A DNA stretch of 45,303 bases from a virus, in the IMG/VR virus record IMGVR_UViG_3300037137_002282, positions 1-45,303 of that record. The stretch is one strand, 5' to 3'. This document shows positions 130 to 18,399 of the stretch, piece by piece. The position numbers and the translations under genes are program-made. Numbering within the stretch: the stretch's first letter is position 1; every line of letters starts with the position of its first letter. The notes beneath the pieces are model-generated. The model ran no database searches. It saw only the letters and a list, made by a program, of their open reading frames with translations, and had not been told where the DNA came from.

Positions 130-420
130 ACGTAAATTTGCATCGCTTGTTACGACCAGCCGATAAGCACAATCTCCCAGAAGTTTGGACCACCATGATA
201 GAGTGCCATCATAGGGCCGGGTAATAATATTTTCCGGGATGGGTGGAGGCGGTGGAACTAGGAGCTTTTTCTTCTGCGTATAAAATTTCTTTGCTCCGGA
301 TTTGGTTAGCTTGCGCGATGAATAATTCCTCCCGCCGACGGTGGAAAAATCCACTTTCCAACATCCGGGCTTGTACTCGACCGGCCCGGAAACAGCTAAA
401 ACCCCGCAGGATGGTCGCAT
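1..420 (-). CDS. terS: Small terminase subunit, N-terminal part (gene crosses window ends)
   Basis: Minus-strand frame starting ATG at 420 and open to base 1; it continues through the circular junction and ends with TAA at 45121-45123, giving about 157 residues. The role, recognition of viral DNA for packaging with the large subunit, is inferred from position: it ends 50 bp inside the start of terL and is the first gene after the predicted late promoter at 535-563. Visible features are a basic N-terminal half, a run of five prolines near residue 60, and a helical Ala/Gln/Glu-rich second half ending in an acidic tail. No clear helix-turn-helix was recognised and the Shine-Dalgarno is weak, so a GTG at 354 is an alternative start. 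Confidence 0.6.
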   Translation of the reverse strand, partial: MRPSCGVLAVSGPVEYKPGCWKVDFSTVGGRNYSSRKLTKSGAKKFYTQKKKLLVPPPPPIPENIITRPYDGTLSWWSKLLGDCAYRLVVTSDANLRQDIRAIAQAAMSAKNLYDTAQIERDFAELKNFVEEKMSEQDTE

Positions 421-432
421 TTCGCTTTAAGA

Positions 433-457
433 CTCGTCAAAAAACGTTGAATTCGAG
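433..457 (-). other. Weak hairpin before terS
   Basis: On the minus strand CTCG and TCAA pair with TTGA and CGAG around a short loop, with a 3-nt bulge, ending 13 nt before the terS ATG. Bases 455-462 could instead pair with the start of the late transcript (GAG-CA bulge-CUAUU). This is a weak echo of the stronger leader structures elsewhere in the genome. Bases 464-534 between here and the late promoter hold nothing else that I recognise. Confidence 0.25.
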
Positions 458-534
458 CTATTGTTAAACCGCAGGCCACCTAAGTTCCCGATACCCCTAC
501 CCTTTTTATCAACCTCAAATAGTGCTCTATTATT

Positions 535-563
535 AGTATGTTATGTGGGGTGAATCTTGTCAA
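535..563 (-). promoter_or_regulatory. Predicted late promoter
   Basis: Minus strand: -35 TTGACA (558-563), 17-bp spacer, -10 CATACT (535-540). It lies about 115 bp upstream of terS and faces the whole virion gene cluster. The -35 region carries the small palindrome CTTGTCAAG and shares AATTCTTGAC with the early divergent promoters, so a common regulator is possible. The 4/6 match of the -10 box makes it a moderate prediction. Confidence 0.55.
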
Positions 564-579
564 GAATTATTTTCTTTCC

Positions 580-1332: not shown

Positions 1333-2141
1333 ATCGTTGCCTCCATCGCAGCCCCTTTGTCCTTCCCATTCCCGCGAGAAATGTTACGTGCCTTGGTTGT
1401 TTCATTGTACCATTCGAACAGTTCTCTGCTCTCTTGGTCGTAAAAATCTGGAGTCTCCAATGCGGCGAGTTGTGCTTTCCTTCCACCGTTTTTCATAATG
1501 GCCAGATATTTTGGGTCTGAAGATTTTACCGCCTCCCATGTACCAAAATTTCCAGCGCCCTTGCCCGGCCTCTTCTCTCCTATACCACGAATGAACCCCG
1601 CCAACTGGAGGAGTTTAACCGTCTCCTTCTCGTTCAGGATAGGCATTAAATATTGAATCCGCAAATGACACGCCCAGTGAGGAATAATTGCGCGAGTACG
1701 AATGTCTGGTGCTCTTGTTTTGCCAGATTGCTTTACCGCGTCCATGTGCAGCATGGGGACACCATATAGAGCGATTCGTTCCTCTGGCGCGGTGATAAGT
1801 CGCTCCAATTTTGTTTTTTCCAGAGATGTGGGCATGTCCAAGGCTACCGATGCCATAGCATGCTTGATAGAACAGGCGACGAGTTGTATTTCCGTCGGTC
1901 CCTTAGGATCTTTATCACGATAGCAAGATGCGCGATATTCTTCTAGCGGATCATGTTTTAGACTTGTCTTCTTCTCGGTTTCTGTTTTTCTCCCTTTGGG
2001 CAAAAGCAATTCGTGTCGTGCTTTCTCACTCAGTCTGTTGAGGAGAATTGGGGACGTTCCGATTAAAAAGACCTCTATCTCTCCTCGCTCCAAAATAGAA
2101 AACTCCAAAATCTGTTCTTTCTCTACTTTTTTCATTGCCAT
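1329..2141 (-). CDS. Conserved phage protein with Gly-rich C-terminal motif, unknown function
   Basis: 270 residues. The ATG at 2141 is chosen because GGAAGAGG lies 7 nt upstream; the frame stays open to 2324 only because it runs through GGA array 2. The middle holds SPILLNRLSEKA, and the C-terminal region reads RTRAIIPHW...LRIQY...LLQLAGFIRGIGEKRPGKGAGNFG. I recall this ending (LLxLAGF-GIGExRP-FG) from a widespread phage family that usually lies beside homologues of the next gene. The glycine-rich loop is reminiscent of RAMP/Cas7-like RNA-binding folds, but that is inference only. It is transcribed from the promoter at 2521-2548 through a structured leader and the array. Confidence 0.8.
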   Translation of the reverse strand: MAMKKVEKEQILEFSILERGEIEVFLIGTSPILLNRLSEKARHELLLPKGRKTETEKKTSLKHDPLEEYRASCYRDKDPKGPTEIQLVACSIKHAMASVALDMPTSLEKTKLERLITAPEERIALYGVPMLHMDAVKQSGKTRAPDIRTRAIIPHWACHLRIQYLMPILNEKETVKLLQLAGFIRGIGEKRPGKGAGNFGTWEAVKSSDPKYLAIMKNGGRKAQLAALETPDFYDQESRELFEWYNETTKARNISRGNGKDKGAAMEATI

Positions 2142-2412
2142 TGTTTCGCCTCTTCCGTTGGTTGGTTGTTGTTCTAAATCCGTCCCATCCGGTCCAATCC
2201 CTTCCTGCCTCTCCGGTCCAATCCGGTCCAGTCCATTCCGCGCCTGCCGCTCCTTTCCTTTCCCCTCCTCTCCCCTCCAGTCCCCTCCGCGCCTGCCGAT
2301 CCCTTCCGTTCCGCTCCGCTCCACTCCGGTCCGGTCCAGTCCGGTCCGCGCCTGCCGATCCGGTCCGGTCCAGTCCGCTCCAGTCCTTTCCCATCCTCTC
2401 CACTCCTGCCAT
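2026..2412 (-). CDS. Possible array-encoded Gly/Arg/Trp-rich peptide
   Basis: An ATG at 2412 follows AAGGAG (2417-2422) by 4 nt and lies 17 nt after the structured leader, the same geometry as the first genes of the other early transcripts. The frame runs 128 codons through the GGA array and overlaps the start of the 270-residue gene in another frame. Because any frame of NGGAN repeats reads as G-x-[DE]-[RGW]-x without stops, openness alone means little. It could be a leader peptide, a low-complexity protein, or an accident. Confidence 0.25.
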   Translation of the reverse strand: MAGVERMGKDWSGLDRTGSAGADRTGPDRSGAERNGRDRQARRGLEGRGGERKGAAGAEWTGPDWTGEAGRDWTGWDGFRTTTNQRKRRNNGNEKSRERTDFGVFYFGARRDRGLFNRNVPNSPQQTE

Positions 2413-2421
2413 TCCGCTCCT
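2182..2421 (-). repeat. Degenerate GGA pentamer array 2
   Basis: Same design as the array at 611-874: NTCCN pentamers on the plus strand in blocks of 4, 6, 8, 10, 9 and 2, separated by 9-nt linkers. Three linkers are exactly CGCCTGCCG (2240, 2289 and 2348) and two are variants (TTCCTGCCT, CTCCTGCCA). The exact linkers are 49 and 59 nt apart. All 39 pentamers keep TCC. It occupies the 5' untranslated region between the promoter at 2521-2548 and the ATG at 2141. Both arrays have the same orientation and flank a two-gene unit. Confidence 0.95.
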
Positions 2422-2429
2422 TCAATAAA

Positions 2430-2510
2430 TTCTCGCCCCTCTGCGCGGATCCGACGAAGAAAACACGCAAAGCGGCGAGAAACTGTTTAAAAACGGAATT
2501 CGTCGGATCT
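2430..2510 (-). ncRNA. Structured leader S (interleaved inverted repeats)
   Basis: Minus strand, beginning about 12 nt after the -10 box. Segment A (GATCCGACGAA, 2509-2499) is perfectly complementary over 11 bp to A' (2458-2448). Segment B (TTCTCGCC, 2481-2474) is perfectly complementary over 8 bp to B' (2437-2430). The order A-B-A'-B' makes an H-type pseudoknot in which the RNA 5' end pairs with the hairpin loop. An AAGGAG-ATG follows within 18 nt. Three other early promoters show the same design. Confidence 0.55.
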
Positions 2511-2520
2511 AACAGCTACA

Positions 2521-2548
2521 CTTTTAGCATGCTCCCCAAAAAAGTCAA
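2521..2548 (-). promoter_or_regulatory. Predicted early promoter PS
   Basis: Minus strand: -35 TTGACT (2543-2548), 16-bp spacer, -10 TAAAAG (2521-2526). It lies just beyond the SSB stop codon and would start RNA near 2514, carrying the structured leader, the GGA array and the two conserved phage genes. Confidence 0.5.
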
Positions 2549-2550
2549 GC

Positions 2551-2937
2551 CTAAAACGGAATATCTTGATCATCGAGCGGCGGAGCTTCTTCTTGCCTCT
2601 GACCTCCGCTGTCACTCTTGCCTCCGAGGAAAATAACCTGATCGGCAACGATTTCTGTCACATAACACTTGCGGCCATCCTTATCGTAAGATCGAGTTTG
2701 CATCCTGCCCTCGATGTAGCATTGCTTCCCCTTGGTCAGATATTTTGCACATGCTTCCCCCTGTTTACCCCATACAACTAGCTTAATCCATTGAGTATCT
2801 TCTTTTTTTGCTCCTCCGCCATCAACCCATTTCCTGGTACAGGCTATTGAAAAATTACATACCGAGGTTCCCCCGGATGTAGTTTTTAACTCTGGATCTT
2901 GTCCTAAGTTTCCAATAAAACAACACTTGTTCAGCAT
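2551..2937 (-). CDS. ssb: Single-stranded DNA-binding protein
   Basis: 128 residues with the bacterial SSB pattern: N-terminal OB fold starting MLNKCCFIGNLGQDPEL, the central WIKLVVWGKQGEACAKYLTKG and YIEGRMQTRSYDKDGRKCYVTEIVADQV strands (to about residue 105), a short Gly/Ser/Gln linker, and an acidic tail ending DDQDIPF, the peptide by which SSBs recruit partner proteins. It covers single-stranded DNA at the replication fork and would act with the primase-helicase encoded 3 bp upstream and with the Erf protein. It is the last gene before the promoter and leader that begin the next transcript. Confidence 0.95.
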   Translation of the reverse strand: MLNKCCFIGNLGQDPELKTTSGGTSVCNFSIACTRKWVDGGGAKKEDTQWIKLVVWGKQGEACAKYLTKGKQCYIEGRMQTRSYDKDGRKCYVTEIVADQVIFLGGKSDSGGQRQEEAPPLDDQDIPF

Positions 2938-2939
2938 AT

Positions 2940-5660
2940 CTACTCCTTTTCGTCATCGTCTGGGTGTATGGTACCACTGCTTACTGCTGCTGCGACTGCT
3001 GACTTGCGCTCCCACCATTTACCTAGTGGTAGTGGAACTTGATTTTTTCCATTGGCGGAACTGGCGGGATCAGCGGAAGTTTTAAGCGTAGTATAGTAAG
3101 TGTCATTTGACACTTTCCATGCGGGGTTTAAATCTTCCTCATTTTCCTCTGGTTCCGCTTGGTTTTCTTTACGATCCATATCCTCTACTGCCCACCTATG
3201 CCCTCGGTTGGAGTCGCTAATAGCTAGTACAAAGCGGAGTCCGTCTAGTATTCTTCCTCGGTAGCGCTTGAGCGTCCATGCAACAGTCCTAGATGTAATG
3301 GGAGTATCGCTGCCGCGCCACTTGGAGTCACAGGCACCAAGCGCATCTCTCAGGTCCGTTGCACTAACCGACTTGGCATCACCAATTGCCGAGCTTATGC
3401 CAACTGGCCTTGAGCCGTAGTTGTCCCACCATGCGTGCAGCAAGTTGCGTAGATTTTCCATTCCCACGTCTGCCTCTTCGCGTATACGCGCCCGGCCAAG
3501 GGTGGGGTCGGCCATACCCAGCCACATAAGCGGCGCTCGGATCATGTCATCCCATGATTCGAAGGAGCCGATTGGAATGCGGTTAATAATTGGTTTTCCA
3601 GCACAGAAGAAAGCGCGGACTATGGTTAGGCAAGACACTACCAGGCGAGGTCTGTTTTCCAGAACCCAGTCTAGTAAGGGATCATGCTTCCAGCCGGTTC
3701 GCTCCTCTGGGCGTTCGGTTTCGGCGTCTAGGGTTATGGGGATAACCCTCCGGCCAGTGTCAGATTTGATTTGGATATTATTTCCTGTAACGAAGACTAC
3801 GGCTCTCCAGGGTACGGTGCGAGTTTCTGTGACTCCCAAAACTCGATCAGTAACAAAACCGCTGGTTAAACTGGCGTCAAGGGCACCGCTCCCAAGAGGA
3901 GCGGTTAGATTATCAATGAGCACCAACGGAGTTCCTTCGATGGCAATGGCCAGAAGGCGCTTGGCCTCTTCGGCTTCCTGGTGCGCCTGGGTCATGCGAG
4001 CCGCTTTGCGTCCACACGAAATGGTGGAGATTACGTCTACCAGAAGAGACTTCCCGGTGCCCGCGGCGCGTGCATCGATGGTGAAAAGAGGGACGGGGCC
4101 GTTGATAGCACTGCGGCACACCACGGAGAGCAGCGCAGCGATGATGGCCGATCGGTCGTGATCAGACATTATGGGGAAGTCGGAAAAAATTTCCAATAGA
4201 TCGTTGATGGCTTTGCGCGCTTCAAGTATGGTGGGATTGACGGGGACGGCGGGATAATTATCACTCATGGCGAGCATGATGCCGGTTTCTTCGTCATAGC
4301 CCGGATTTTCGATCACGGTCCCGTTGGGGCGAAGAGTAGGGGCCTCGGCTATGCCAGTAATTGGGGGAAGCGTCCACTTGCCGCGGTCAGAGAACATTTT
4401 TATTGCCCAGTCAGGGGGTATAGATGCACCCCACTCACCGGATCGTTTGTCTAGCCTTAGCCAGTCGGCGGAAAGAGAAGCCATTTCGGTGAGGTGGGGG
4501 ATTGGTGCGGCTCCAATCGCGGTTGCGCCGATTACCTTGGACAGTCCGCGCGGGGGATTGGCGTCAACGGTTATGCGGACGAGCCTGCCTCCACGTTGAA
4601 ATATTTTTCGAGGGCGTAATTTTAAAATTGCATCTTCGAGTTGGTCAACTACATCTGGCATGTTTGTGGTTATGTGGATAATTTGCCGGGCGTTGTTTTC
4701 TGGTTCGTCCGGGATGGGACCGGGATCAGATGACGAGTTTGATGTTGAAAGAGTTTCTGGGGCTCCGAAACCTTTACGCGCCAACCCGCGAGCGGCGGCG
4801 CTAAAATCTCCTCGGTGTTCGAGCAACGAAAAAAGCTGGAAAAGCGAATACCCACGCATGGGGTCAAGGTGGGTGGAGGAGGTGAAACAATAAAATACCC
4901 GTTTTCCGACGTGCCAAGTTCCGCCCGTGCCGGATGGTTTATCCGGCCTGGTCCAGAGCTCATTGTCTCCGCTTCGTCCATGGATTCGCCAACCGTTATT
5001 TATCAAAACCTGGACATGATCCCCACGAGAGGAGAAGTCGTCTCCGGGGGACTCGCCGCGGCGAGGTGGGCTCGATCCGGGCGATGGAGGGGGTGAGAGT
5101 TCGGGGGGGAGTTCCGGTGCGCTGTTTATATCCAAAGGCATACCGGGATGAGATAGGGAAAAATGCGGGTGATCCGGTGCTGACATGGGCAGCCATGAAA
5201 GGCGAGACGGGTCTTTGCATGCTGGATCCCATGCCGTTCCGATCAGGTATGTTGCCAATCGCGGATAGAGGGCGCTCCAGGACGCTCCGGGTACTGGTTC
5301 TTTGAGGGGGAAAACCACTCGCCAGCGAGGGACAGCCGGTTGACCGTGTTTTTCTTTAAGATGATGGGCGGTGCTATAGACGACATAGGATAGGCCGCGT
5401 TCAATCCAAAGTTGCGAAACATCCTCTACGACGATTCCACAATCAACATCCAGGACAAGACAATAAACCAACTCGACCCCCGCAGCTCCGCGCGTAGTTC
5501 CGGGCAGGTATTTAGTAGGGCTCCAGAGCTTGGCTTGATCCTGGTCGATGGCGGGAGAGAATTGTGAGAGTAGGTCGCAAAGCTGATCCCATGACACCGT
5601 TGCCGGTTCGGGTGTAGTGGTGTATTTATTTTTCCAGAGACAGATTTCTAGCGCAACCAT
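2940..5660 (-). CDS. Primase-helicase fusion (AEP-type primase plus ATPase)
   Basis: 906 residues from ATG 5660, which overlaps the preceding stop by 13 bp. The N-terminal region carries an archaeo-eukaryotic primase/PrimPol pattern: LDVDC with D71 and D73, YSTAHH (H99/H100), then PRWRVVF around residue 112. A proline-rich linker (about 185-205) precedes a small WHVGKRVFYCF module. The second half is a helicase-type ATPase with Walker A AAGTGKS near residue 535, Walker B LVLIDN near 582, and a VTGNN sensor-like motif. It probably primes and unwinds DNA as the central replication protein. I cannot tell from sequence alone whether the primase also polymerises DNA; no separate DNA polymerase is encoded. 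Confidence 0.88.
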   Translation of the reverse strand: MVALEICLWKNKYTTTPEPATVSWDQLCDLLSQFSPAIDQDQAKLWSPTKYLPGTTRGAAGVELVYCLVLDVDCGIVVEDVSQLWIERGLSYVVYSTAHHLKEKHGQPAVPRWRVVFPLKEPVPGASWSALYPRLATYLIGTAWDPACKDPSRLSWLPMSAPDHPHFSLSHPGMPLDINSAPELPPELSPPPSPGSSPPRRGESPGDDFSSRGDHVQVLINNGWRIHGRSGDNELWTRPDKPSGTGGTWHVGKRVFYCFTSSTHLDPMRGYSLFQLFSLLEHRGDFSAAARGLARKGFGAPETLSTSNSSSDPGPIPDEPENNARQIIHITTNMPDVVDQLEDAILKLRPRKIFQRGGRLVRITVDANPPRGLSKVIGATAIGAAPIPHLTEMASLSADWLRLDKRSGEWGASIPPDWAIKMFSDRGKWTLPPITGIAEAPTLRPNGTVIENPGYDEETGIMLAMSDNYPAVPVNPTILEARKAINDLLEIFSDFPIMSDHDRSAIIAALLSVVCRSAINGPVPLFTIDARAAGTGKSLLVDVISTISCGRKAARMTQAHQEAEEAKRLLAIAIEGTPLVLIDNLTAPLGSGALDASLTSGFVTDRVLGVTETRTVPWRAVVFVTGNNIQIKSDTGRRVIPITLDAETERPEERTGWKHDPLLDWVLENRPRLVVSCLTIVRAFFCAGKPIINRIPIGSFESWDDMIRAPLMWLGMADPTLGRARIREEADVGMENLRNLLHAWWDNYGSRPVGISSAIGDAKSVSATDLRDALGACDSKWRGSDTPITSRTVAWTLKRYRGRILDGLRFVLAISDSNRGHRWAVEDMDRKENQAEPEENEEDLNPAWKVSNDTYYTTLKTSADPASSANGKNQVPLPLGKWWERKSAVAAAVSSGTIHPDDDEKE

Positions 5661-5854
5661 TTGCTCACGCCTGCCTGAATATTTTCCAGGGCAGAGATCA
5701 TTTTGTCTGTTACCCGCTCGTTTTCTTCGATCCAAACACGCATGCTGGTGACTTTTTCGTATACTGAGTCGCTGAAGTCTTCGGCTTGTTCGGGGAGATC
5801 TTCGAGGCTGGCCAAAATTTCGTCGCAGAGTTCAATAGCTTCTTCGTAGTCCAT
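5648..5854 (-). CDS. Small acidic helical protein, first gene of left operon
   Basis: 68 residues, strongly acidic and helical (DYEEAIELCDEILASLEDLPEQAEDF). ATG 5854 has GAGGAA 4 nt upstream; a longer frame from TTG 5923 has no usable ribosome site and runs into the leader hairpin. It overlaps the start of the primase-helicase gene by 13 bp. No family was recognised. As the first product of the leftward early operon it could be an anti-host factor or a partner of the primase, but nothing in the sequence shows this. Confidence 0.75.
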   Translation of the reverse strand: MDYEEAIELCDEILASLEDLPEQAEDFSDSVYEKVTSMRVWIEENERVTDKMISALENIQAGVSKWLR

Positions 5855-5874
5855 CGTTTCCTCGGGCAATAAAT

Positions 5875-5991
5875 AACCAGCCGCCAGAACACTCGTTGAG
5901 GAGGAAGCGAGCAGGTCGATCAAAACCTCTGACGGCTGGTTGGGTCGCTAAACTTTTTTTGTTCTCCTCTTCGAGTTGCGTTTTGATCGAT
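5875..5991 (-). ncRNA. Structured leader L (pseudoknot design with anti-SD loop)
   Basis: Minus-strand leader of the left operon. A (5990-5980, 11 nt, ending CAAAAC) lies at the predicted RNA 5' end and is perfectly complementary to A' (5926-5916). B (AACCAGCCGTCAGA, 5941-5928) pairs with B' (TCTGGCGGCTGGTT, 5888-5875) over 14 bp with one G-U. A' lies in the B hairpin loop, giving an H-type pseudoknot. The same loop also holds TTCCTC (5906-5901), complementary to the GAGGAA ribosome site of the 68-residue gene. The stem ends 20 nt before that gene's ATG. Confidence 0.6.
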
Positions 5992-5998
5992 AGCGAGC

Positions 5999-6027
5999 AC
6001 TCTAAACAAAGATGGCTGGGGAGTCAA
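5999..6027 (-). promoter_or_regulatory. Predicted left early promoter PL
   Basis: Minus strand: -35 TTGACT (6022-6027), 17-bp spacer, -10 TAGAGT (5999-6004), predicted RNA start near 5991. It drives the small acidic protein, primase-helicase and SSB. Its -35 box lies inside the palindrome at 6023-6040, shared with the divergent rightward promoter. Confidence 0.75.
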
Positions 6028-6040
6028 GAATTTTCTTGAC
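6023..6040. promoter_or_regulatory. Palindromic operator candidate between divergent early promoters
   Basis: GTCAAGAATTTTCTTGAC: perfect 8-bp arms around TT. The left arm contains the -35 of the leftward promoter and the right arm the -35 of the rightward promoter, so one bound dimer would block or organise both. Half of it (GTCAAGAATT) recurs at 559-568 beside the late -35 box. Confidence 0.6.
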
Positions 6041-6064
6041 GCGGGGGAGTTGATGAGATAGGGT
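6036..6064 (+). promoter_or_regulatory. Predicted right early promoter PR
   Basis: Plus strand: -35 TTGACG (6036-6041), 17-bp spacer, -10 TAGGGT (6059-6064). It faces the rightward operon and shares the 6023-6040 palindrome with the leftward promoter. The -10 is not consensus, which would suit activation or repression. Confidence 0.5.
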
Positions 6065-6070
6065 GCTTGT

Positions 6071-6158
6071 TGCATCGGATGATTCTCTAAAAAAACATCT
6101 TGCCTCCTCGCGGTTCCATTCCCTCATCCGGTGCGGGACTGCGGGGAGGCGGGTTTTT
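6071..6158 (+). ncRNA. Structured leader R with terminator-like hairpin
   Basis: B (GCCTCCTCGC, 6102-6111) pairs with B' (GCGGGGAGGC, 6141-6150), 10 bp with one G-U, followed by GGGTTTTT: an intrinsic-terminator or attenuator shape between the promoter and the first gene. A (GCATCGGATGA, 6072-6082), at the predicted RNA 5' end, pairs with A' (TCATCCGGTGC, 6124-6134) inside the hairpin loop, 11 bp with one G-U. The two pairings interleave as in the other early leaders, so the 5' end could stabilise or compete with the terminator. Confidence 0.6.
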
Positions 6159-6173
6159 ATCGAGGACGAAAAA

Positions 6174-6449
6174 ATGGACACGAAAGAATTGAAAATCGAG
6201 CGAACAATCTCGATCGAGGTATGCGAGAGTGGAATTTATTTTGTGGATGGGGTGATGTGCATTACTTCTCTTAGCGCGGTGGATATGGTGAAAGACTGCC
6301 TTGGAGTCTCCGAGGTGAAAAAGGTCCGCAAGCCACGCAAGGGCAAGAAGGGCGGCGAGGCCGCGGGGGTTGCCGGGCTAACTCCTGCACCCAGGGCGGG
6401 CAGGCCGAAAAAAATTACCATCGTAGGCACCGATGGCGAGAAAAAATAA
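6174..6449 (+). CDS. Small basic protein with AT-hook-like tail
   Basis: 91 residues from ATG 6174, preceded by GAGGA with 7-nt spacing; the frame is open upstream to 6063 but that part overlaps the leader hairpin. The N-terminal half is beta-rich (TISIEVCESGIYFVDGVMCITSL); the C-terminal half is Lys/Arg/Gly/Pro rich with KKVRKPRKGKKGG and PRAGRPKK, the latter an AT-hook-like GRP core. Binding to DNA or RNA is plausible. As first gene of the rightward operon, directly upstream of the helicase (GTG immediately after its stop), it may be a regulator or helicase partner. Confidence 0.75.
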   Translation: MDTKELKIERTISIEVCESGIYFVDGVMCITSLSAVDMVKDCLGVSEVKKVRKPRKGKKGGEAAGVAGLTPAPRAGRPKKITIVGTDGEKK

Positions 6450-7712
6450 GTGGAACTCCGCGCCTACCAGCAACGAACGGTTTCTGACGTCCGGCGACTT
6501 TGGTCCGAGGGCAAGCGATCGGTATGTGTGGCGCTGCCCACTGGAAGCGGAAAAACCGTGATAGGCGCAGAGCTCGCCGCCGATCGTCAGACATTGTGGA
6601 TCTGTCATAGGCTGGAATTGTTAGAACAGACCAGGGCCAGGGTATCAGCCAATGTCCGCGTTGAAACCGTCCAAGGGTTGCTTGCGAGCGGGAAACGCCC
6701 GCTCGCCGAGGTTTTTATTCTCGACGAGTGTCACCATTATTGCGCCGAGGAATGGAACAAACTCGTAACGGATTATCCTGGCGCGCTCGTTGTTGGATTA
6801 ACTGCTACCCCATGCCGCGCCGATCAACAAGCGCTAGGCGATATTTTCGATGCAATTGTAACGGGCGCGAATTACTCCGAATTGATTAAAGGAAACTGGC
6901 TTATTCGTCCGAAGTGTATGCGTCCCCCAGAGGAGGTGCAGGGCCTCGCGCTGAAACCAGAGGACGCCTGGCGCAAGTGTGCCGGCGAGCGGCAGGGGTT
7001 CGCCTACTTTTCACGCCTCGAGTTGGCTAAGAAATTTTCAGACGCTTTGGGCGATCGGTGCGAAACAATCTTCGGTGAAACGCCGGAGGATTGGCGTCTT
7101 GAGGCAATGGATAGGTTTCGAGCGGGAAAGTTGCAGGTGTTGAGCTCCTGCTCTTGTCTGACCGAGGGGTTAGACGTTCCTCAAGCCGAAGTGGCGATGA
7201 TCGCCCGCGGATGCGATCACATCAGCACATGGGTTCAGATCGTTGGGCGGATTATGCGCCCTTGGGGTGGAAAAACCGAGTCATTGGTTGTTGACCTCCC
7301 CGGAGTCAGTCATCGTCATGGCCTTCCCGGAACTGACCTTGAATATTCTCTCACGGGCCAGGCGATCCGCGCCAAGGTGGAGAGCCTGCGGACATGCCTG
7401 AAATGCGGATGCACGTATCGCTGCAGTGAAGAAAAATGTCCATCTTGTGGACATATCGAACCGCCCAAGCCGGCCAAGGTGCGGATCTGGAACATACCGT
7501 TGGAGGATGCCCTACAGGCAGCACAGACTCCGAAAGAACGAGGCATTGCGCGGTATCGTCAGGAGATGGCAGGAGCGAGCAGGGAGGAGCTTAGGGCACT
7601 ATATCAATCGCTGGCGGCGAAGGGAGCGGAACGTGGCTATGCTCGCGGATGGGCATTGCATCAATATCGCATCAGGGTGGGGAGATGGCCCGATCGTGGT
7701 ATTATCAGTTAA
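6450..7712 (+). CDS. Superfamily 2 DEAD/DEAH-type helicase with zinc ribbon
   Basis: 420 residues from a GTG directly following the previous TAA. Helicase motifs are complete: PTGSGKT (30-36, ATP binding), DECHH (92-96), TATP (118-121) and QIVGRIMRP (263-271). A four-cysteine ribbon follows: CLKC (316-319) and CPSC (330-333). The C-terminal 70 residues are helical and basic. The arrangement resembles the UvsW/RecG-like helicases that many phages carry for branch migration, fork rescue or origin opening. It would act with the Erf annealing protein and nucleases encoded in the same operon. Confidence 0.92.
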   Translation: MELRAYQQRTVSDVRRLWSEGKRSVCVALPTGSGKTVIGAELAADRQTLWICHRLELLEQTRARVSANVRVETVQGLLASGKRPLAEVFILDECHHYCAEEWNKLVTDYPGALVVGLTATPCRADQQALGDIFDAIVTGANYSELIKGNWLIRPKCMRPPEEVQGLALKPEDAWRKCAGERQGFAYFSRLELAKKFSDALGDRCETIFGETPEDWRLEAMDRFRAGKLQVLSSCSCLTEGLDVPQAEVAMIARGCDHISTWVQIVGRIMRPWGGKTESLVVDLPGVSHRHGLPGTDLEYSLTGQAIRAKVESLRTCLKCGCTYRCSEEKCPSCGHIEPPKPAKVRIWNIPLEDALQAAQTPKERGIARYRQEMAGASREELRALYQSLAAKGAERGYARGWALHQYRIRVGRWPDRGIIS

Positions 7713-7729
7713 CCAACAGGAGAAAAGAA

Positions 7730-8161
7730 ATGAACACAAACGAAGAGAAAGTTAGTATTTCAAACCTTGCCGACGGAGCAGCCATCGAAATGTGCGATGA
7801 AGCACTTGAGCAGGTGTGGCGGGACATTTGCGATCCGAATACTGCTTCGACCGTAAAGCGCCAGTTTTCGCTTGTGCTCACGCTGGAGCCAGACGAGGGG
7901 CGAGAATTTATTACGATCGGGATCCAATGCGACAAAAAACTAGTCAAGGTTCGTTGCGACAAGTGCGGAAGCGTCGGACTTTCGCGACGTTGCTTCTGTG
8001 CCCACCAGATGCGCGAGGAGCTGAAGGCGAAGGGTTGGAAGCACGTTGCCGAGGGAGGGAAGGACTTCTGCCCCAAGTGCAAGCCTCGCCGAAAGCCTCG
8101 GAGGCGCTCACGGACGACGATCACGCTGGTAAACAGCGAGAGAAAAACGGAGCGAGGTTAA
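7730..8161 (+). CDS. Zinc-motif protein with replication-terminator-protein-like N-terminus
   Basis: 143 residues; ATG 7730 has AGGAG with 7-nt spacing. Residues 9-68 (ISNLADGAAIE...DPNTASTVKRQFSLVLTLEPDE) match the pattern I recall from the small phage proteins annotated as replication terminator protein in Firmicutes phages, whose activity is unproven. This version adds a cysteine-rich C-terminus (CDKCGSVGLSRRCFC, then CPKC) and a very basic KPRRKPRRRSR tail, suggesting nucleic-acid binding. It lies between the helicase and a run of small overlapping genes. Confidence 0.75.
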   Translation: MNTNEEKVSISNLADGAAIEMCDEALEQVWRDICDPNTASTVKRQFSLVLTLEPDEGREFITIGIQCDKKLVKVRCDKCGSVGLSRRCFCAHQMREELKAKGWKHVAEGGKDFCPKCKPRRKPRRRSRTTITLVNSERKTERG

Positions 8162-8164
8162 CGG

Positions 8165-8413
8165 ATGAAACAGAACCCAGAATTGTATTGGCACTGCCTC
8201 CAATGCGGGGCTCACGATCCTGTCGATCCGACTGCCGGAGCAGAGCAGGAGCAATACGGTCTTGGAGATTACGGGCCGTGCATCACATGCGGCGGCGGGA
8301 CCGCGCACGTAGTCACGCTTCGCATGGGCGCATGCTATGAGCAGGGCCGAGCGCTCGGTATGGATATCAGAGACGCATGGGATCGCGCTCTGAAATTGCG
8401 AGGCGGAAAATGA
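8165..8413 (+). CDS. Small zinc-ribbon protein
   Basis: 82 residues from ATG 8165 (GCGAGG upstream). Two cysteine pairs, CLQC (11-14) and CITC, form a probable zinc ribbon; the C-terminus is helical. No named family was recognised. It is followed by an ATGA overlap with the next gene, so it belongs to the tightly packed early operon. Confidence 0.7.
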   Translation: MKQNPELYWHCLQCGAHDPVDPTAGAEQEQYGLGDYGPCITCGGGTAHVVTLRMGACYEQGRALGMDIRDAWDRALKLRGGK

Positions 8414-8613
8414 TCGACTGGTGGAACCTACAGCCGACATGGCTCAAGAGGCTGCGCTTGTTTCTAGGCATCGTCTGGCGCATGCACGAGGGCAACCGCA
8501 TGACGTGTGCGCTTTCGTGGGATGTCGCCAAGTGTCTATACCCAATAAAGAATCGAGGCCACGGATTTAACAGCGAGAGAAGTAAGCAGCGCGAGAATGG
8601 AGGCCGACCGTGA
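8410..8613 (+). CDS. Small basic protein, unknown
   Basis: 67 residues from ATG 8410, overlapping the previous stop as ATGA with GAGG 6 nt upstream. It is rich in Trp, Arg and Lys (MIDWWNLQPTWLKRLRLFLGIVWRMHEGN) with an amphipathic first half that could associate with membranes or nucleic acid. No family was recognised. Confidence 0.6.
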   Translation: MIDWWNLQPTWLKRLRLFLGIVWRMHEGNRMTCALSWDVAKCLYPIKNRGHGFNSERSKQRENGGRP

Positions 8614-8768
8614 TTTTCATTGAGGTTCGTGCGAGCGTGGCGCGTGTCGAGCTTGCCCGAGGTGCGGGAGGAAAAATTATCGCGGTGGAGCCGCGGTCCA
8701 GGCAAACGGAATTACCACTTGCGGGGGTAACCGATATCAGCACGGCACGAGGAGGCGAAAATGATTAA
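8610..8768 (+). CDS. Very small protein, unknown (52 aa)
   Basis: GTG at 8610 overlaps the previous stop (GTGA) and has a near-perfect GGAGG with 6-nt spacing. The 52-residue product begins MIFIEVRASVARVELARGAGG and ends STARGGEND; its stop overlaps the next gene's ATG at 8761. The ribosome site and the overlaps on both sides support it as a real gene despite its size. No function can be assigned. Confidence 0.6.
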   Translation: MIFIEVRASVARVELARGAGGKIIAVEPRSRQTELPLAGVTDISTARGGEND

Positions 8769-9501
8769 AAATGCGTTGGAATATATTGCTAAATTGGGGC
8801 AGCAGGCAGTAAATAAAAAGAGGGAAATTTTTCAATCCCCGGATGGGAAGGATTGTTTCACCGATACCGGAACGTTAATCGTACCACCAGCCCCCCCCGT
8901 ATTATTTTTTTCGATGCTAGAGGGATTTGCCGGTTACATTAATGCCAATCGAGATGAGTTGATCTTGGCGATGCAGACCGTTCATGTAAAATCTCCCACA
9001 TTGGTGGAAATATACGGGAGAGTGGATGATAAATATAAGCTCCGTTCCATCCCTGCACAATGCTGCCCGCCCGCTGCAACCCGGCATAAATTCGGCGAGT
9101 ACCTCGACGCCGAAAATTTTATAATCTGGTTGCTCTCTGGTTTTGTGCAAGACGAATCTACGGCCAATGCTCTTAAAGTCGTGGGAAATCTGAAGTCAGA
9201 AAAAATATCCACGATCGTCGACGACGGAGTGACGCAGATTACATCAGTGCGCGCCAGAATAAGTAAACTCGTCGAGGTGGAAATCAGAAACCCGATCTGG
9301 CTCCACCCATATCGGACCTTTGAGGAAATTTCGCAACCCAGCTCTCCGTTCATTTTGTGTTTGCGCGAGAGGGGGGAGGCTCTCCCGCAGATCGCCCTAT
9401 TCGAGAGTTCGGATATGAGCTGGATGAATACCGCAGTTAAATCGATCGGCGAGAAATTAGAAACGCTGATCGACGATAAAGCCATCCCAATACTTATCTG
9501 A
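8761..9501 (+). CDS. DUF2303/YfdQ-like phage protein
   Basis: 246 residues; ATG 8761 follows GAGGAGGCGAAA. The pattern KFGEYLDAENFIIWL...VVGNLKSEKISTIVDDGVTQ..VR then NPIWLHPYRTFEEISQPSSPFILCLRE...ALFESSDMSW resembles the YfdQ/DUF2303 group found next to recombination genes in prophages. Biochemical role is unknown. It ends in an ATGA overlap with the VRR-NUC nuclease gene, which points to DNA metabolism. Confidence 0.65.
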   Translation: MIKNALEYIAKLGQQAVNKKREIFQSPDGKDCFTDTGTLIVPPAPPVLFFSMLEGFAGYINANRDELILAMQTVHVKSPTLVEIYGRVDDKYKLRSIPAQCCPPAATRHKFGEYLDAENFIIWLLSGFVQDESTANALKVVGNLKSEKISTIVDDGVTQITSVRARISKLVEVEIRNPIWLHPYRTFEEISQPSSPFILCLRERGEALPQIALFESSDMSWMNTAVKSIGEKLETLIDDKAIPILI

Positions 9502-9845
9502 TGAAACCGCCCACCCCCGAATCTCAGCTCAAGCATGATATTCGTCTGGCCCTCGGCGCCGAACCAGATCTCGTACTCTGGAACAATCCGCGAGGTTTTG
9601 CAATCATGGAAAACCGCCGCATAAAATTCGGGCTTTGCCCCGGCGCGAGTGACCTCCTCGGAATTTTGGCACCGGCTGGTCGCTGGTTTTGTCTGGAAAT
9701 AAAAATCAAGAAAAATAAACCGACCGATGATCAAGAAATGTTCGTGGCCCTGATCCGCGCCAGGGGGGGATTTGCATGCGCGGTCTGGTCCATCGCCGAG
9801 GCGCTGGAAGCGCTCGAGCGCGCACGTGGGGGACTGAGCCAGTAG
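9501..9845 (+). CDS. VRR-NUC domain nuclease
   Basis: 114 residues, the usual size of a stand-alone phage VRR-NUC enzyme. Motifs: E7 and the N-terminal helix, GASDLLGIL (metal-binding Asp), FCLEIKIKK (the Glu-x-Lys of the PD-(D/E)XK core) and DQEMFVALIRARGGFACAV (the VRR-like helix and strand). It probably cuts branched or flapped DNA during replication and recombination. ATG overlaps the preceding stop. It is the last gene before the internal promoter at 9912. Confidence 0.9.
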   Translation: MKPPTPESQLKHDIRLALGAEPDLVLWNNPRGFAIMENRRIKFGLCPGASDLLGILAPAGRWFCLEIKIKKNKPTDDQEMFVALIRARGGFACAVWSIAEALEALERARGGLSQ

Positions 9846-9846
9846 G

Positions 9847-9881
9847 TGTATATTATTTGCCACAGTATACATTTTGCCACA
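9847..9881 (+). promoter_or_regulatory. Repeat cluster upstream of P9912
   Basis: The 9-mer TTTGCCACA occurs at 9856-9864 and 9873-9881, 17 bp apart, and TGTATA (9847-9852) is inverted as TATACA (9866-9871). The cluster lies 30-65 bp upstream of a near-consensus -35 box, where activators or repressors commonly bind. No known operator was recognised. Confidence 0.4.
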
Positions 9882-9911
9882 CCCAATGCGATAAAAAATA
9901 TTAAAAAAGTA

Positions 9912-9939
9912 TTGACAGAAACATTGTACATGCTATTAT
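9912..9939 (+). promoter_or_regulatory. Strong predicted sigma-70 promoter
   Basis: Consensus -35 TTGACA (9912-9917), 16-bp spacer, -10 TATTAT (9934-9939); with 17 bp the hexamer would be ATTATA. The RNA start near 9946 gives a leader of only about 28 nt to ATG 9974, with no hairpin, unlike the four structured early leaders. Confidence 0.8.
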
Positions 9940-9973
9940 ATAAGTATAAGGCAATCAAGGACAGGAGACGAAA

Positions 9974-10288
9974 ATGAAAGCAATAATTGCAGGAAAAAGA
10001 TACAACACTGCGACGGCCCAGAGGGTGGCGAAATGGGACAATAATTACCCCCTGAATGATTCGGGGTACGAGGAGGAAACCCTGTTTCTAACCACAAAGG
10101 GAAGCTGGTTTCTGGATGGCGAGGGGGGAGCCTCCAGCAAGTATGCTGTCCCAATCGGGAGCAATGAGCGTGGCGGATCAGGTAAAATCACTGCGCTGAC
10201 CCCCACATCGGCGAGGGAATGGCTGGAAGAGCGGCAAGAGCTCAGGGCTCTGGAAGAGTTTTTCCTCGAGGCATTGAGCGACGCTTAG
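9974..10288 (+). CDS. Conserved small phage protein, unknown
   Basis: 104 residues from ATG 9974 with AGGAG 6 nt upstream, within the box AAGGACAGGA. The start KAIIAGKRYNTATAQRVAKWDN...LFLTTKGSWFLDGEGG is typical of small beta-rich proteins seen in many phages and plasmids; none has a known activity that I can name. The C-terminal 35 residues are helical (REWLEERQELRALEEFF). It is the first gene of the transcript from the strong promoter at 9912. Confidence 0.75.
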   Translation: MKAIIAGKRYNTATAQRVAKWDNNYPLNDSGYEEETLFLTTKGSWFLDGEGGASSKYAVPIGSNERGGSGKITALTPTSAREWLEERQELRALEEFFLEALSDA

Positions 10289-10349
10289 ACCGCGCTGGAG
10301 CAGGCATCCAGCGAGGAATTTTTTCTGTTTGATAGAGAGGAGTAGAAAA

Positions 10350-10538
10350 ATGAAAACCCTCAACATCGAAATTTCTGCTGCCCTGCGCGCGCGCATCGAT
10401 GCCGCACGGCAAGCATGCGCAGAAGCGAAACAGATCCCGCTAACCGCGTGCAGCAACCGGGTTGTTTTACCCTGGCTGCTGGAGCTGGCGCTAGATACAA
10501 TCGAGCGCCGCGAGGCACTAGACGATCCTCAGAGATAG
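10350..10538 (+). CDS. Small ribbon-helix-helix-like protein
   Basis: 62 residues, ATG 10350 with GAGGAG and 7-nt spacing. It opens with a strand-like KTLNIEIS and then helices (AALRARIDAARQACAEAK; LPWLLELALDTIERREAL), a layout compatible with a ribbon-helix-helix DNA binder, though no diagnostic residues prove it. Bases 10289-10349 before it hold no gene. Confidence 0.6.
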   Translation: MKTLNIEISAALRARIDAARQACAEAKQIPLTACSNRVVLPWLLELALDTIERREALDDPQR

Positions 10539-10553
10539 AAAAGGACAGGAAAA

Positions 10554-11798
10554 ATGAAATTGCTGAACTTAGAAATTGAAAACGTGCGTGGTATTCGCCA
10601 CGTAAAAATCCTAGCGAAACAGATCAACGAAATTGCTGGCCCCAACGGAGCCGGAAAAACCACGGTGTTGGATGCGGTGAAAATGCTTTTTTGCGGCAAG
10701 CGCGCCAGCGGTATAAAACCGCTGCGCAATTACGAGGAAACGGGAAAGATCAAGGGCATCGTGGGAGATGAAAACGGCGAGCGGTTCATCGCCACCAGGA
10801 AATTCGATAAGAACGGCGAGAGCAAATTAACGATCGTGCCGAAAGACGGAACAAAACGCGGCCAAGACGAACTCGACGAGTTGATCAATAAAAAAACGCT
10901 TGATCCCTTGTATTTTGATCGCCTCTCTTCCAAGGAAAAATTCGGGGCCATCCAGAGCATGGCCCCGGATGGTTTCCTCCAAGAAATGGGCAAATTAAAC
11001 GGCGAGGTTTTGCAGGCGGAGGAGGAGCGCAAGGACGCAAAAAAAGATCTTGCCAAAATAGGAAAAATTCCAAAAGTTGAGTCGGTCGCCGAGGTGGATG
11101 TTTCCGCCCTCATGGCCGAGATGCAGGAGAATGAAAAACACAATGCCAGGCAACGCACCGTAGCAGATAAACTCGCACGCGATCGGCAAACATTGCAAGC
11201 TATGGCGGATAAAATAGCAGAGCAAGCGAAGCAGTTCGAGATTTTGAAAAAAGAAATCGAATCCACTCCCGAACCCCAACCAATCATTAATCTTGACGGC
11301 ATCGCCGCTAAAATCTCTCAGGCAGGGGAAGCAAATAAAGCTGCACAGGCATACGCGGAATATCAACGCCGCGTAGCTGAGCAGGTTGTCAAAGCTCAAT
11401 CCGTCGAGGAGTGGGAGGCCAAAGTTTCCGACCTCCATGTTCGGCGCAAAGATCTGCAAGCAAAAATCTCTCTGCCCGTAGATGGTCTCACCTTCGATGA
11501 GAATAATCTTTGGCTTAATGGCGTTCCCTATCCCGAACTCTCAGCCTCGGAGCGAATCAGGCTGAGCACTAAAATTGCCATGTCTCTCAATCCTGAGTTG
11601 CGGATCTTGTTTGTTCAGGATGGCTCAAATTTGGATCAGCAGAGTTACAAGGAAGTTGAAACACTCGCGATGGAGAAGGATTACCAGCTCTGGATTGAAA
11701 CCGTAGGCGCTGGCCATGGATCCGCGCTGATTTTGAGGGCTGGCGAAGTGGTCGAGGGGGAAGCGCTTGAAGCGCTCCTCGCCAGCATGCGTCCATAG
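10554..11798 (+). CDS. SMC/RecF-like ATPase
   Basis: 414 residues, ATG 10554 preceded by the AAAAGGACAGGA box. N-terminal Walker A AGPNGAGKTT (about 28-37) follows the LEIENVRGIRHVKI strand pattern of RecF/SMC/Rad50 enzymes; residues 150-310 are coiled coil; the C-terminal lobe has the signature-like LSASERIRLSTKIAMSLN and the Walker B region LRILFVQDGSNLD. The usual Asp-Glu pair reads Gln-Asp, a deviation I also recall from related phage ATPases. It probably binds DNA ends or single-strand gaps, working with the Erf protein encoded next. Confidence 0.85.
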   Translation: MKLLNLEIENVRGIRHVKILAKQINEIAGPNGAGKTTVLDAVKMLFCGKRASGIKPLRNYEETGKIKGIVGDENGERFIATRKFDKNGESKLTIVPKDGTKRGQDELDELINKKTLDPLYFDRLSSKEKFGAIQSMAPDGFLQEMGKLNGEVLQAEEERKDAKKDLAKIGKIPKVESVAEVDVSALMAEMQENEKHNARQRTVADKLARDRQTLQAMADKIAEQAKQFEILKKEIESTPEPQPIINLDGIAAKISQAGEANKAAQAYAEYQRRVAEQVVKAQSVEEWEAKVSDLHVRRKDLQAKISLPVDGLTFDENNLWLNGVPYPELSASERIRLSTKIAMSLNPELRILFVQDGSNLDQQSYKEVETLAMEKDYQLWIETVGAGHGSALILRAGEVVEGEALEALLASMRP

Positions 11799-11805
11799 GG
11801 AATAA

Positions 11806-11834
11806 TTGACGAAGAAGAACCGTTTTAGTACAGT
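11806..11834 (+). promoter_or_regulatory. Predicted promoter PE (erf)
   Basis: -35 TTGACG (11806-11811), 17-bp spacer, -10 TACAGT (11829-11834). The RNA start near 11841 would put the segment TGGACAGGGG at the very 5' end of a 113-nt leader. The promoter starts 8 bp after the ATPase stop. Confidence 0.7.
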
Positions 11835-11840
11835 GCGGTA

Positions 11841-11950
11841 ATTGGACAGGGGAATAGTACCCCTAAAAAAACAAAATATCCTGGCTCTTCCAGCGTGCCC
11901 TCGCGGCCCCTGTCCAGCGCTTGAGGAGCCAGGTTTTAGAAAAGGACAGG
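11841..11950 (+). ncRNA. Structured leader E (pseudoknot and anti-SD loop)
   Basis: B (11880-11895) and B' (11918-11933) form a nearly continuous 16-bp stem with one mismatch and one G-U (CCTGGCTC with GAGCCAGG at the base). Its 22-nt loop holds CCCCTGTCCA (11907-11916), perfectly complementary to TGGACAGGGG (11843-11852) at the RNA 5' end and, over 7 bp, to GGACAGG (11944-11950) beside the erf start. A smaller hairpin AGGGG/CCCCT (11848-11864) competes for the 5' segment. The three-way competition suggests translational control. The stem is followed by TTTT, so attenuation is an alternative. Confidence 0.65.
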
Positions 11951-11953
11951 ACA

Positions 11954-12769
11954 ATGGACACTATCACCGCTGAATTTTCTGAAGTAGCAAACGGAAATAG
12001 CAATCCAGCCGCGCTGATCAAAGTGGCCGTGGACAAAGGCGCCCCGATCGAGTACCTGGATCGTCTTTTGAATTTGCAACTCAAGTGGGAGGCAAACGAA
12101 GCCAGGAAGGCTTTTACTCGCGCCATGAGCGAGTTCAAAAGCGATCCGCCATCCATCATCAAGGATCGCCAGGTTTCTTTTAACCAAACGCACTATAAAC
12201 ACGCCAGCCTGGGGAACGTGGTGAGGGAGACAACCGCGGCACTGGGGAAGCATGGCTTGAGCGCCAGATGGGTGACAACCCAGGCCGAGGGAGGTAAATC
12301 AGTCACCGTCTCGTGCGTTGTTACCCACCTGCTGGGTCATTCCGAGGAGGTTTCCCTGACCGCTCCCATGGACACCAGCGGAAGCAAAAACCCGATCCAG
12401 GCGATCTGTTCGACGGTAAGCTATCTCCAGCGCTATACCTTACTTGCCGCGCTTGGGCTGGCGACCGAAGATCAAGACGACGATATAGCAACGGCTGCCC
12501 CTCCCCCCCCAAGCGAAGCACCAAAACCCGCCGCTCCCCAAGTCTCCATCAAAAATCAAAAACTCCTTTCTGGTTTAAAAAAATATGGAATTGACCCGAC
12601 GGACATCAAGCGAATTATTCCGCGTGATCCACAGGACTGGACTGACGAGGATTATAATTTGCTGGTAAAAAACGGGGGAGAGATCAAAAACTCCAAGCCA
12701 GAAGAACGTGCGGAGAAAATCCGCACGCTGTTTAAGATTGCGGATAGAGATCCCGGCGAGGAAGGGTGA
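11954..12769 (+). CDS. erf: Erf-family single-strand annealing protein
   Basis: 271 residues from ATG 11954 (AAGGA with 7-nt spacing). The Erf core spans about residues 30-180, with EANEARKAFTRAMSEFKSDPPSI, the YKHASLGNVVRETTAALGKHGLSARW stretch and the diagnostic PIQAICSTVSYLQRYTLLAALGLATEDQDDD. A proline-rich linker and a charged C-terminal domain follow. Erf proteins anneal complementary single strands in phage recombination and end joining. The stop overlaps the exonuclease gene as TGATG, coupling annealing protein and nuclease. Its leader is unusually structured, suggesting controlled dosage. Confidence 0.93.
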   Translation: MDTITAEFSEVANGNSNPAALIKVAVDKGAPIEYLDRLLNLQLKWEANEARKAFTRAMSEFKSDPPSIIKDRQVSFNQTHYKHASLGNVVRETTAALGKHGLSARWVTTQAEGGKSVTVSCVVTHLLGHSEEVSLTAPMDTSGSKNPIQAICSTVSYLQRYTLLAALGLATEDQDDDIATAAPPPPSEAPKPAAPQVSIKNQKLLSGLKKYGIDPTDIKRIIPRDPQDWTDEDYNLLVKNGGEIKNSKPEERAEKIRTLFKIADRDPGEEG

Positions 12770-13590
12770 TGCTTTACCGCAACCTACTAATTGACGGTGG
12801 CGCGAGCGTTGCCGCCCACAAGGCTAGCGGAACGCTGACTCCGTTTGTCTCGCGCATCATGGATCTGATCGCCCAGGTGCAACCCGTTTGCACCTTCGTC
12901 TGTTGGGACTGTCCCCGCGAAACAGGATGGAGGAGAGCGCTTAGCCCGGCATACAAGGCGAATCGCCCGCCCGCCGACTCATCCTATGTGATGGCACTAG
13001 CAGAAATCCAGCCCATACTAACTGCGCTTGATATAGTGCAGGCGCGCGCGCCAGGCTGCGAGGCAGATGATCTTTTATATAGTCTCTCACGCCAGCTCCC
13101 CGGCCCCACCATGATGGCCAGCGGCGACAAGGACATGATCGCTGCGGTGACTGACGGAGTTGACCTATTCAAGCTCGGCGCAAGTAAGCGATTCCCAGAT
13201 CTGCTTATTACGATAGAGAGCCTGATCGATGGCATGACTCCGCGCCAGTGGGGCGGCTATCTTGCATTATCAGGTGATCCAGTGGACGGAGTTGCAGGGG
13301 TACTAGGCATCGGTCCAGCAAAGGCAAAAGCGCTGATACAGGCATGCCCCGGAGTGGTAAGATTGATCCTTGACGATCGGCTATACGAGGCACGCGCCAT
13401 GGTCGTGGGTGAGGACGCTACCGCGTACGGAATCCTGGAGAAGGCGATCAAAAATAAAACAGATCTGGAGTTGAGCTACAAACTAACCCGCTTTGCAATG
13501 GTTGATCCTGAAATAATCGACGCCGAACCGGACCAAGAAAAAGCAAACGAGTGGCTGAGAAACACTGGACTCGGGAGGTATGCAAAATGA
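12769..13590 (+). CDS. 5'-3' exonuclease / flap endonuclease (FEN family)
   Basis: 273 residues; ATG 12769 overlaps the Erf stop, with GAGG 7 nt upstream (a GTG one codon earlier is possible). FEN motifs: LLIDGG with D9, the SPAYKANRP stretch, GCEADDLLY, ASGDKDM (metal-binding acidic residues), and the helix-three-turn-helix GDPVDGVAGVLGIGPAKAKALIQ. It resembles the T5 D15 and polymerase I N-terminal nucleases, removing RNA primers or flaps and resecting ends for Erf annealing. No attached or separate polymerase is seen. Confidence 0.92.
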   Translation: MLYRNLLIDGGASVAAHKASGTLTPFVSRIMDLIAQVQPVCTFVCWDCPRETGWRRALSPAYKANRPPADSSYVMALAEIQPILTALDIVQARAPGCEADDLLYSLSRQLPGPTMMASGDKDMIAAVTDGVDLFKLGASKRFPDLLITIESLIDGMTPRQWGGYLALSGDPVDGVAGVLGIGPAKAKALIQACPGVVRLILDDRLYEARAMVVGEDATAYGILEKAIKNKTDLELSYKLTRFAMVDPEIIDAEPDQEKANEWLRNTGLGRYAK

Positions 13591-13859
13591 GGAGATCCCG
13601 CGAAGGAGCTTTCAAAATAACCCGCCTCGCAAATGACGGCGAAATGATGCTGACCTTTCACCTCATTGTCGAGGTGAGCTACACTCCGGTGGAGGATGGT
13701 CTCTTTAACATTGAGGACATCCGGCTAGAGCATGTTGAGATCGAAATGGTTACCAACGAAGACGGCGTTGAAATACCAGCAGAAGATCCGCTTGTGCCAC
13801 GGTTGAAAGAGCTGGCAATGACATACGATGAGATGGAAGATTTTTTAGGAGGATGCTGA
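13587..13859 (+). CDS. Small acidic protein, unknown
   Basis: 90 residues; ATG 13587 overlaps the previous stop (ATGA) and has GGGAGG 8 nt upstream. It begins with a basic, strand-rich part (FKITRLANDGEMMLTFHLIVEVSY) and becomes strongly acidic. No family was recognised. It is coupled to the Ala-rich protein gene by TGATG. Confidence 0.65.
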   Translation: MRRSREGAFKITRLANDGEMMLTFHLIVEVSYTPVEDGLFNIEDIRLEHVEIEMVTNEDGVEIPAEDPLVPRLKELAMTYDEMEDFLGGC

Positions 13860-15595: not shown

Positions 15596-15617
15596 AAAAA
15601 TCCAACAGGAAAATGTG

Positions 15618-16256: not shown

Positions 16257-16295
16257 ACTATACACCCATTCCCAAGGATTAGGACCGGGCCCATA

Positions 16296-16481: not shown

Positions 16482-16486
16482 TGTGC

Positions 16487-16514: not shown

Positions 16515-16523
16515 AAACTAATC

Positions 16524-16556: not shown

Positions 16557-16590
16557 TAACCAAAGCCAAACCTATTAAGGAGGTTGAACC

Positions 16591-18391: not shown

Positions 18392-18399
18392 GGCCTATT

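Follow-up and report, generated by a model that had tools for sequence, protein, structure and literature searches.

Four operon leaders in one phage genome share a predicted 5'-terminal pseudoknot architecture built from unrelated sequences

Introduction

Several kinds of structured RNA are known that resemble, each in part, the leaders described here. The put sites of phage HK022 are plain hairpins with a conserved sequence, and the 5' stabilisers of the ompA/papA type are simple hairpins as well. The exonuclease-resistant RNAs (xrRNAs) of flaviviruses are located in 3' UTRs and adopt a ring-like fold that is braced against the enzyme. An RNA of this last kind also halts bacterial RNase J1 in vitro (PMC5760640). 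The operator of T4 gene 32 serves a single gene; its pseudoknot lies 67 nt upstream of the AUG and is followed by an unstructured A+U-rich run over the ribosome site, to which gp32 binds cooperatively (PMC3014915).

Here we describe four leaders in a single phage genome, in which a segment next to the predicted start of the transcript is complementary to the loop of a downstream hairpin that ends shortly before the start codon. We report how these leaders are built, how they compare with chance, at which promoters they occur and whether the same design is found elsewhere.

Results

Architecture of the four leaders

The window analysed here is a whole IMG/VR virus record of 45,303 bases, whose first 16 kb contain the genes for replication and recombination; the terminase and portal genes lie on the minus strand. 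The initial annotation had placed four structured leaders in this region without naming their strands. The positions were confirmed. Re-reading of both strands showed that leaders 1 and 2 can be read on the minus strand alone and that leaders 3 and 4 require the plus strand; every one of them heads an operon. The order of the parts is the same in all four: promoter, segment A, linker, segment B, A' (pairing with A), B' (pairing with B), Shine-Dalgarno sequence (SD) and ATG.

Leader 1 (2412..2548, minus strand) has the promoter TTGACT (2548-2543)-N17-AAAAGT (2525-2520), followed by A at 2509-2499 (GATCCGACGAA), the linker at 2498-2482, B at 2481-2466, A' at 2458-2448, B' at 2445-2430 and the ATG at 2412-2410. 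Its operon carries an unknown phrog_4652-type gene. At 590-880 and 2160-2412 there are long runs of a pentanucleotide repeat of variable sequence, TCCNN (read as NNGGA on the minus strand), interspersed with CGCGCCTGCCGATCC. The second run separates leader 1 from the likely true start of the phrog_4652-type gene (about 2141, MAMKKVEK...), and therefore the first ORF behind leader 1, which crosses the repeat, may not be a real gene. Two further repetitive stretches were noticed in the window: GCC-rich triplet-phased repeats form a low-complexity array at 14236-14520 within the ORF 13853-14575, and a hexanucleotide array of GGCTAT, GGCTCT and GGCGAT units at 15150-15600 produces false pseudoknot and miRNA hits.

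Leader 2 (5852..6027, minus strand) is preceded by TTGACT (6027-6022)-N17-TAGAGT (6004-5999) and consists of A at 5990-5980 (TCGATCAAAAC), a linker with a run of seven A (A7) at 5960-5954, B at 5941-5927, A' at 5926-5916, a loop L3 at 5915-5890 and B' at 5889-5875, with the ATG at 5854-5852. The operon behind it comprises a 68-aa ORF, a primase/helicase-like gene (2940-5735 frame) and an SSB gene (2551-2937; PF00436). In this leader base pairing is also possible between the linker (5979-5942, ACTCGAAGAGGAG) and L3 (CTCCTCAACGAGT); the resulting third helix would cross the other two. As an alternative, TCGCTTCCTC in L3 can pair with the SD (GAGGAAACGA).

Leader 3 (6036..6176, plus strand) starts with TTGACG (6036-6041)-N17-TAGGGT (6059-6064) and continues with A at 6070-6082 (TTGCATCGGATGA), a linker with A7 at 6089-6095, B at 6099-6117, A' at 6124-6136, B' at 6135-6153 and the ATG at 6174; it fronts a 91-aa ORF and a DEAD/ResIII helicase gene (6450-7712). 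Leader 4 (11806..11956, plus strand) has the promoter TTGACG (11806-11811)-N17-TACAGT (11829-11834), then A at 11842-11852 (TTGGACAGGGG), a linker with A7 at 11865-11871, B at 11880-11895, A' at 11907-11917 and B' at 11918-11933. The ATG that follows, at 11954, is that of a gene for an ERF ssDNA-annealing protein, and the operon also encodes a 5'-3' exonuclease.

In the four leaders A:A' measures 11-13 bp and B:B', with G-U pairs included, 15-19 bp; the B:B' stems of leaders 1 and 4 contain a bulge or mismatch. The distance from the end of B' to the ATG is 17, 20, 20 and 20 nt in leaders 1 to 4, a tighter range than the 17-23 nt first given. Loop geometry is more variable. The loops of the B:B' hairpins span 17-37 nt, the gap between A' and B' is 0-4 nt in leaders 1, 3 and 4 and 26 nt (L3) in leader 2, and the gap between B and A' (L2) is absent from leader 2 and about 7-11 nt in the others. 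With a transcription start site (TSS) predicted 7-8 nt past the -10 box, 3-4, 1-2, 0-1 and 0-1 nucleotides would be left unpaired at the 5' end of leaders 1 to 4, respectively.

The sequences of A and B are different in each leader. An A7 run is present in the A-to-B linkers of leaders 2, 3 and 4, against about 0.03 runs expected over the 98 nt of linker in total; the whole window has 25 such runs over both strands, about one per 3,600 nt of either strand.

Comparison with chance

The initial annotation had claimed a repeated architecture in unrelated sequences and had named shuffled controls as a check of it. We scored the A-B-A'-B' arrangement by stacking energies in 1000 dinucleotide shuffles of each leader, and the observed score was matched by 1, 0, 0 and 0 shuffles for leaders 1 to 4. 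When A was anchored at the 5' end, none of the 1000 shuffles matched for any of the four. H-type pairing of the order A-B-A'-B' is thus far above chance in every leader, as had been claimed, and the RNAs may fold into the corresponding knots.

We also compared the leaders with the rest of the genome, in 115-nt windows on both strands. With a low-complexity repeat excluded, the two highest pseudoknot scores genome-wide are those of leaders 3 and 4; the score of leader 1, the weakest, is reached by about 0.7% of windows. A lone strong pseudoknot therefore does arise by chance in this genome; its occurrence at all four promoters of the same kind does not. A detector was then defined by a sigma70-like promoter 4-12 nt 5' of A, two stems of -16 kcal/mol or lower each, and a start codon with an SD located 12-30 nt after B'. 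In the window it matched exactly the four leaders, and in 10 locally shuffled windows it gave 0-4 structure hits each, none of them linked to a promoter.

The frequency of windows as good as leader 1 is what speaks for chance inverted repeats, or for a role of the repeats at the DNA level, for instance as operator pairs. We consider both highly improbable, since all four real leaders behind promoters of one type carry the knot at fixed positions, no leader is equalled by more than 1 in 1000 of its shuffles, and no equal frequency was seen at promoter leaders of unrelated phages (1.85 Mb). Moreover, A and A' differ in sequence among the leaders, so no single DNA-binding protein would read them. 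Taken together, these results support well that the four leaders are a repeated pseudoknot architecture, real as a sequence feature. Rfam covariance models had no match at the leaders in window 1-18000 with E up to 1; models of this type cannot see knots that are free of sequence constraint.

Competing folds and the ribosome site

Rough energies, with a pseudoknot initiation penalty that we took to be 9.6, favour the knot over its best nested competitor in leaders 3 and 4 (-5.1 and -2.6 kcal/mol); the knot is slightly behind in leaders 1 and 2 (+2.0 and +0.9 kcal/mol). Nested folds of all four leaders include some base pairs between the linker and the tail, which would fit a translational switch, in which A:A' keeps the linker off the ribosome site and linker:SD pairing stops translation when A:A' is not formed. 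In leader 1, the linker segment ATTCCGTTTTT is complementary to AGGAGCGGAAT, which spans the SD, and this pairing beats 99% of dinucleotide-shuffled linkers; the SD of leader 4, GGACAGG, duplicates part of A and might be a rival partner of A'. However, in leaders 2 and 4 the linker pairs with the tail no better than its shuffled versions do, and in leader 3 it is only marginally better. We regard such a switch as quite unlikely. As a feature general to all four leaders it was rejected by this shuffling, being clearly above chance in leader 1 only.

Promoters with and without the knot

A scan that tolerated a single mismatch in the second box showed that one promoter type, TTGAC-N17-NANNGTG, fronts all four leaders. 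The sole further strict match with 17-nt spacing is at 33650, within the structural gene block, and one variant with 18-nt spacing is found at 16633. Two other promoters have leaders without a pseudoknot. The first (9912..9973, plus strand; TTGACA-N16-TATTAT) is near-consensus, with 11 of 12 consensus positions and a TG ahead of the -10 box, and has a short unstructured leader; it may be an earlier promoter or one of host strength. The second (418..563, minus strand; TTGACA-N17-CATACT) is probably late, and 644 of 1000 shuffles of its leader are equally good. The label "early" that had been attached to the four leaders is unproven; the strongest consensus promoter of the region (9912) and the probable late one both lack the design.

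The position of all four structures at the extreme start of an operon, behind a single promoter type, could also point to a transcriptional element, either a nascent knot acting on RNA polymerase in the manner of put antitermination or a B:B' attenuator tuned by A:A'. T-rich stretches do follow B' (TTTATT, ATTTATT, TTTTTA and TTTTA), but none of the four hairpins was found in a terminator scan, their loops of 17-37 nt far exceed those of intrinsic terminators, and sites of the put type have a common sequence whereas the leaders have none. We judge a transcriptional role improbable. Two specific forms of it were set aside: an intrinsic terminator or attenuator, which would be a GC-rich short-loop hairpin with a direct T run, on account of the loop lengths and the negative scan; and a put-like element, for lack of a sequence common to the leaders.

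Relatives and a similar leader in another phage

Megablast of window 1-20000 against 50,697 phage records found no close relative, and neither did single queries with the primase, portal, helicase and TerL against viral and genome contigs. Alignment queries with the primase and portal gave only relatives of 19-31%, tblastn with six proteins against the phage records gave nothing close enough, and the repeat motif TCCGCGCCTGCCGATCC led to contigs with at most a distant helicase in common. Phages Cy-LDV1, CP2 and UmaThurman have only a few early genes in common with the window. With no close relative in any of the searched collections, the pairing kept across four unrelated sequences is the nearest substitute for compensatory change within a lineage.

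The detector was run on T7, lambda, Mx8 and four phages with distant shared genes, and further on assorted viral loci (about 0.7 Mb) and on loci that contain ERF (1.5 Mb). T7, lambda and Mx8 gave no match, and one locus (L010) gave a single match with a poor -10 box. Only one outside match in 1.85 Mb has the strength of the leaders. It lies at 3437-3594 of a 40.7-kb contig (L194) of a Myxococcales metagenome-assembled genome (MAG), with TTGACT-N17-CAACAT followed by A, B, A', B', 21 nt and an ATG. The first gene (102 aa) overlaps the start of an ERF gene, so that this leader fronts an ERF operon; A is located at the predicted TSS, and the sequence is unrelated to those of the four leaders. It is the top pseudoknot window of its contig, the strongest among 519 structure hits of the ERF set and the sole one linked to a promoter. 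With offsets shifted as a control, a promoter was matched by an average of 2.5 among 519, or about 0.5% for each hit. Of 1000 5'-anchored shuffles, 1 was as good. When cases were ranked by z-score over the 1.85 Mb, the four leaders and L194 were the top five promoter-linked ones.

The contig encodes a Mu-type portal and baseplate J, and its phage is therefore unrelated to that of the window. As a fifth case L194 is suggestive but no proof, because the ERF loci were searched post hoc, with the design already known, and it is one case. Its phage had no relatives in viral contigs, and an ERF match was present in only 3 of 193 genomes of its class.

That this leader likewise heads an ERF operon would fit a shared operator, in which a phage or host protein reads the shape of the knot and jointly represses or activates translation of the replication and recombination operons, as a multi-operon form of the autoregulation of gp32 or of ribosomal proteins. 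The same shape in unrelated sequences and the near-constant distance to the ATG agree with it, as does the presence of ssDNA-binding proteins among the products (SSB in operon 2, ERF in operon 4). Nevertheless, apart from the A-rich linkers there is no common sequence element to read, the loops of leader 2 differ from those of the others as described above, the ribosome site is outside the structure, and most of the ERF phages sampled do not have the design. We consider joint control of this kind unlikely.

Discussion

The analysis establishes the pairings and where they lie with respect to promoter and start codon; it also shows that they are non-random and that the promoter type is common to all four. 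We infer from them that the knots form, that the transcripts start where predicted and that the mRNAs gain stability. Protection of the 5' end had been among the roles initially suggested, and it is supported as a possible one. Tentatively, and with slightly less than even confidence, we propose that a cis-acting pseudoknot buries the 5' end of the phage mRNA, leaves the ribosome site free and thereby stabilises the message.

The initiating 30S subunit has a footprint that starts roughly 20 nt before the AUG. In the model that we propose, the first 11-13 nt (A) would pair with the loop of the strong hairpin B:B', whose base would halt about 20 nt 5' of the start codon, at the edge of that footprint. 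The 5'-terminal pair could stack on the B:B' helix in leaders 1, 3 and 4, because A' and B' are only 0-4 nt apart there, and the linker, often A-rich, would run back along the helices. Decay that depends on the 5' end (RppH then RNase E, or RNase J) would find no free end and scant single strand, while the SD region, outside the structure, would stay accessible.

In all four leaders A begins within 0-4 nt of the predicted TSS, which is expected if the 5' terminus matters, and the near-constant distance of 17-20 nt between hairpin base and ATG also supports sealing of the end. Pairing of the 5' terminus is known to protect bacterial mRNA, and RppH of B. subtilis requires at least two unpaired nucleotides at the 5' end (PMC3997798); a knotted RNA is moreover able to halt RNase J1 mechanically, by shape alone (PMC5760640). 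The shuffle and detector results, the A7 runs of the linkers and the L194 leader count in its favour too. Against this proposal, a plain 5' hairpin would seal the end equally well, so that the need for a knot itself is not accounted for, the rough energies place the knot slightly behind in leaders 1 and 2, and leader 1 may leave 3-4 nucleotides unpaired.

A wider reading, which we hold to be doubtful, is that such leaders form a sequence-independent class of phage RNA that arose separately in unrelated phages and serves several operons in one genome. A hairpin next to the ribosome, on its upstream side, would lock the 5' end in its loop, as a bacterial counterpart of exonuclease-resistant RNA. 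Elements of this kind escape searches with family models because no sequence is conserved, and a simple detector finds them. Four unrelated knots, each set at a fixed distance from both the 5' end of the transcript and the start codon, are also natural replicates for the effects of a 5' knot on mRNA decay and translation.

Like the T4 gene 32 operator, with which they had been compared, the leaders place a pseudoknot in phage mRNA ahead of a gene for a replication protein. The likeness does not go much further. Here there are four operons, stems of 11-19 bp, an A segment at the predicted 5' end of the transcript and a structure that ends 17-20 nt before the AUG; the T4 layout, with the knot far upstream and the ribosome site covered by unstructured A+U-rich sequence, is absent, and an SSB gene (PF00436) is downstream in one operon of the four. 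With the stabilisers of the ompA/papA type the leaders have in common a 5' end in a helix near +1, the transcript starting within a few nucleotides of a stable helix (0-4 unpaired nt from the predicted TSS), and a free ribosome site. They differ from those hairpins in that the pairing partner of the 5' end is the loop of another, separate hairpin, which gives a knot, and in that several operons of one phage carry the arrangement in unrelated sequences. Like xrRNA they would be pseudoknotted RNAs that block 5'-3' decay, a block that is hypothetical here, but the 5' end itself is base-paired, the topology is different and no core sequence is in common. The put RNAs of HK022 are likewise structured RNAs at the start of phage operon transcripts, whereas the present leaders are knotted and have no sequence in common. 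Structured 5' leaders are thus a known kind of element; what is new, and well supported as a sequence feature, is their knotted, multi-operon and sequence-unrelated form.
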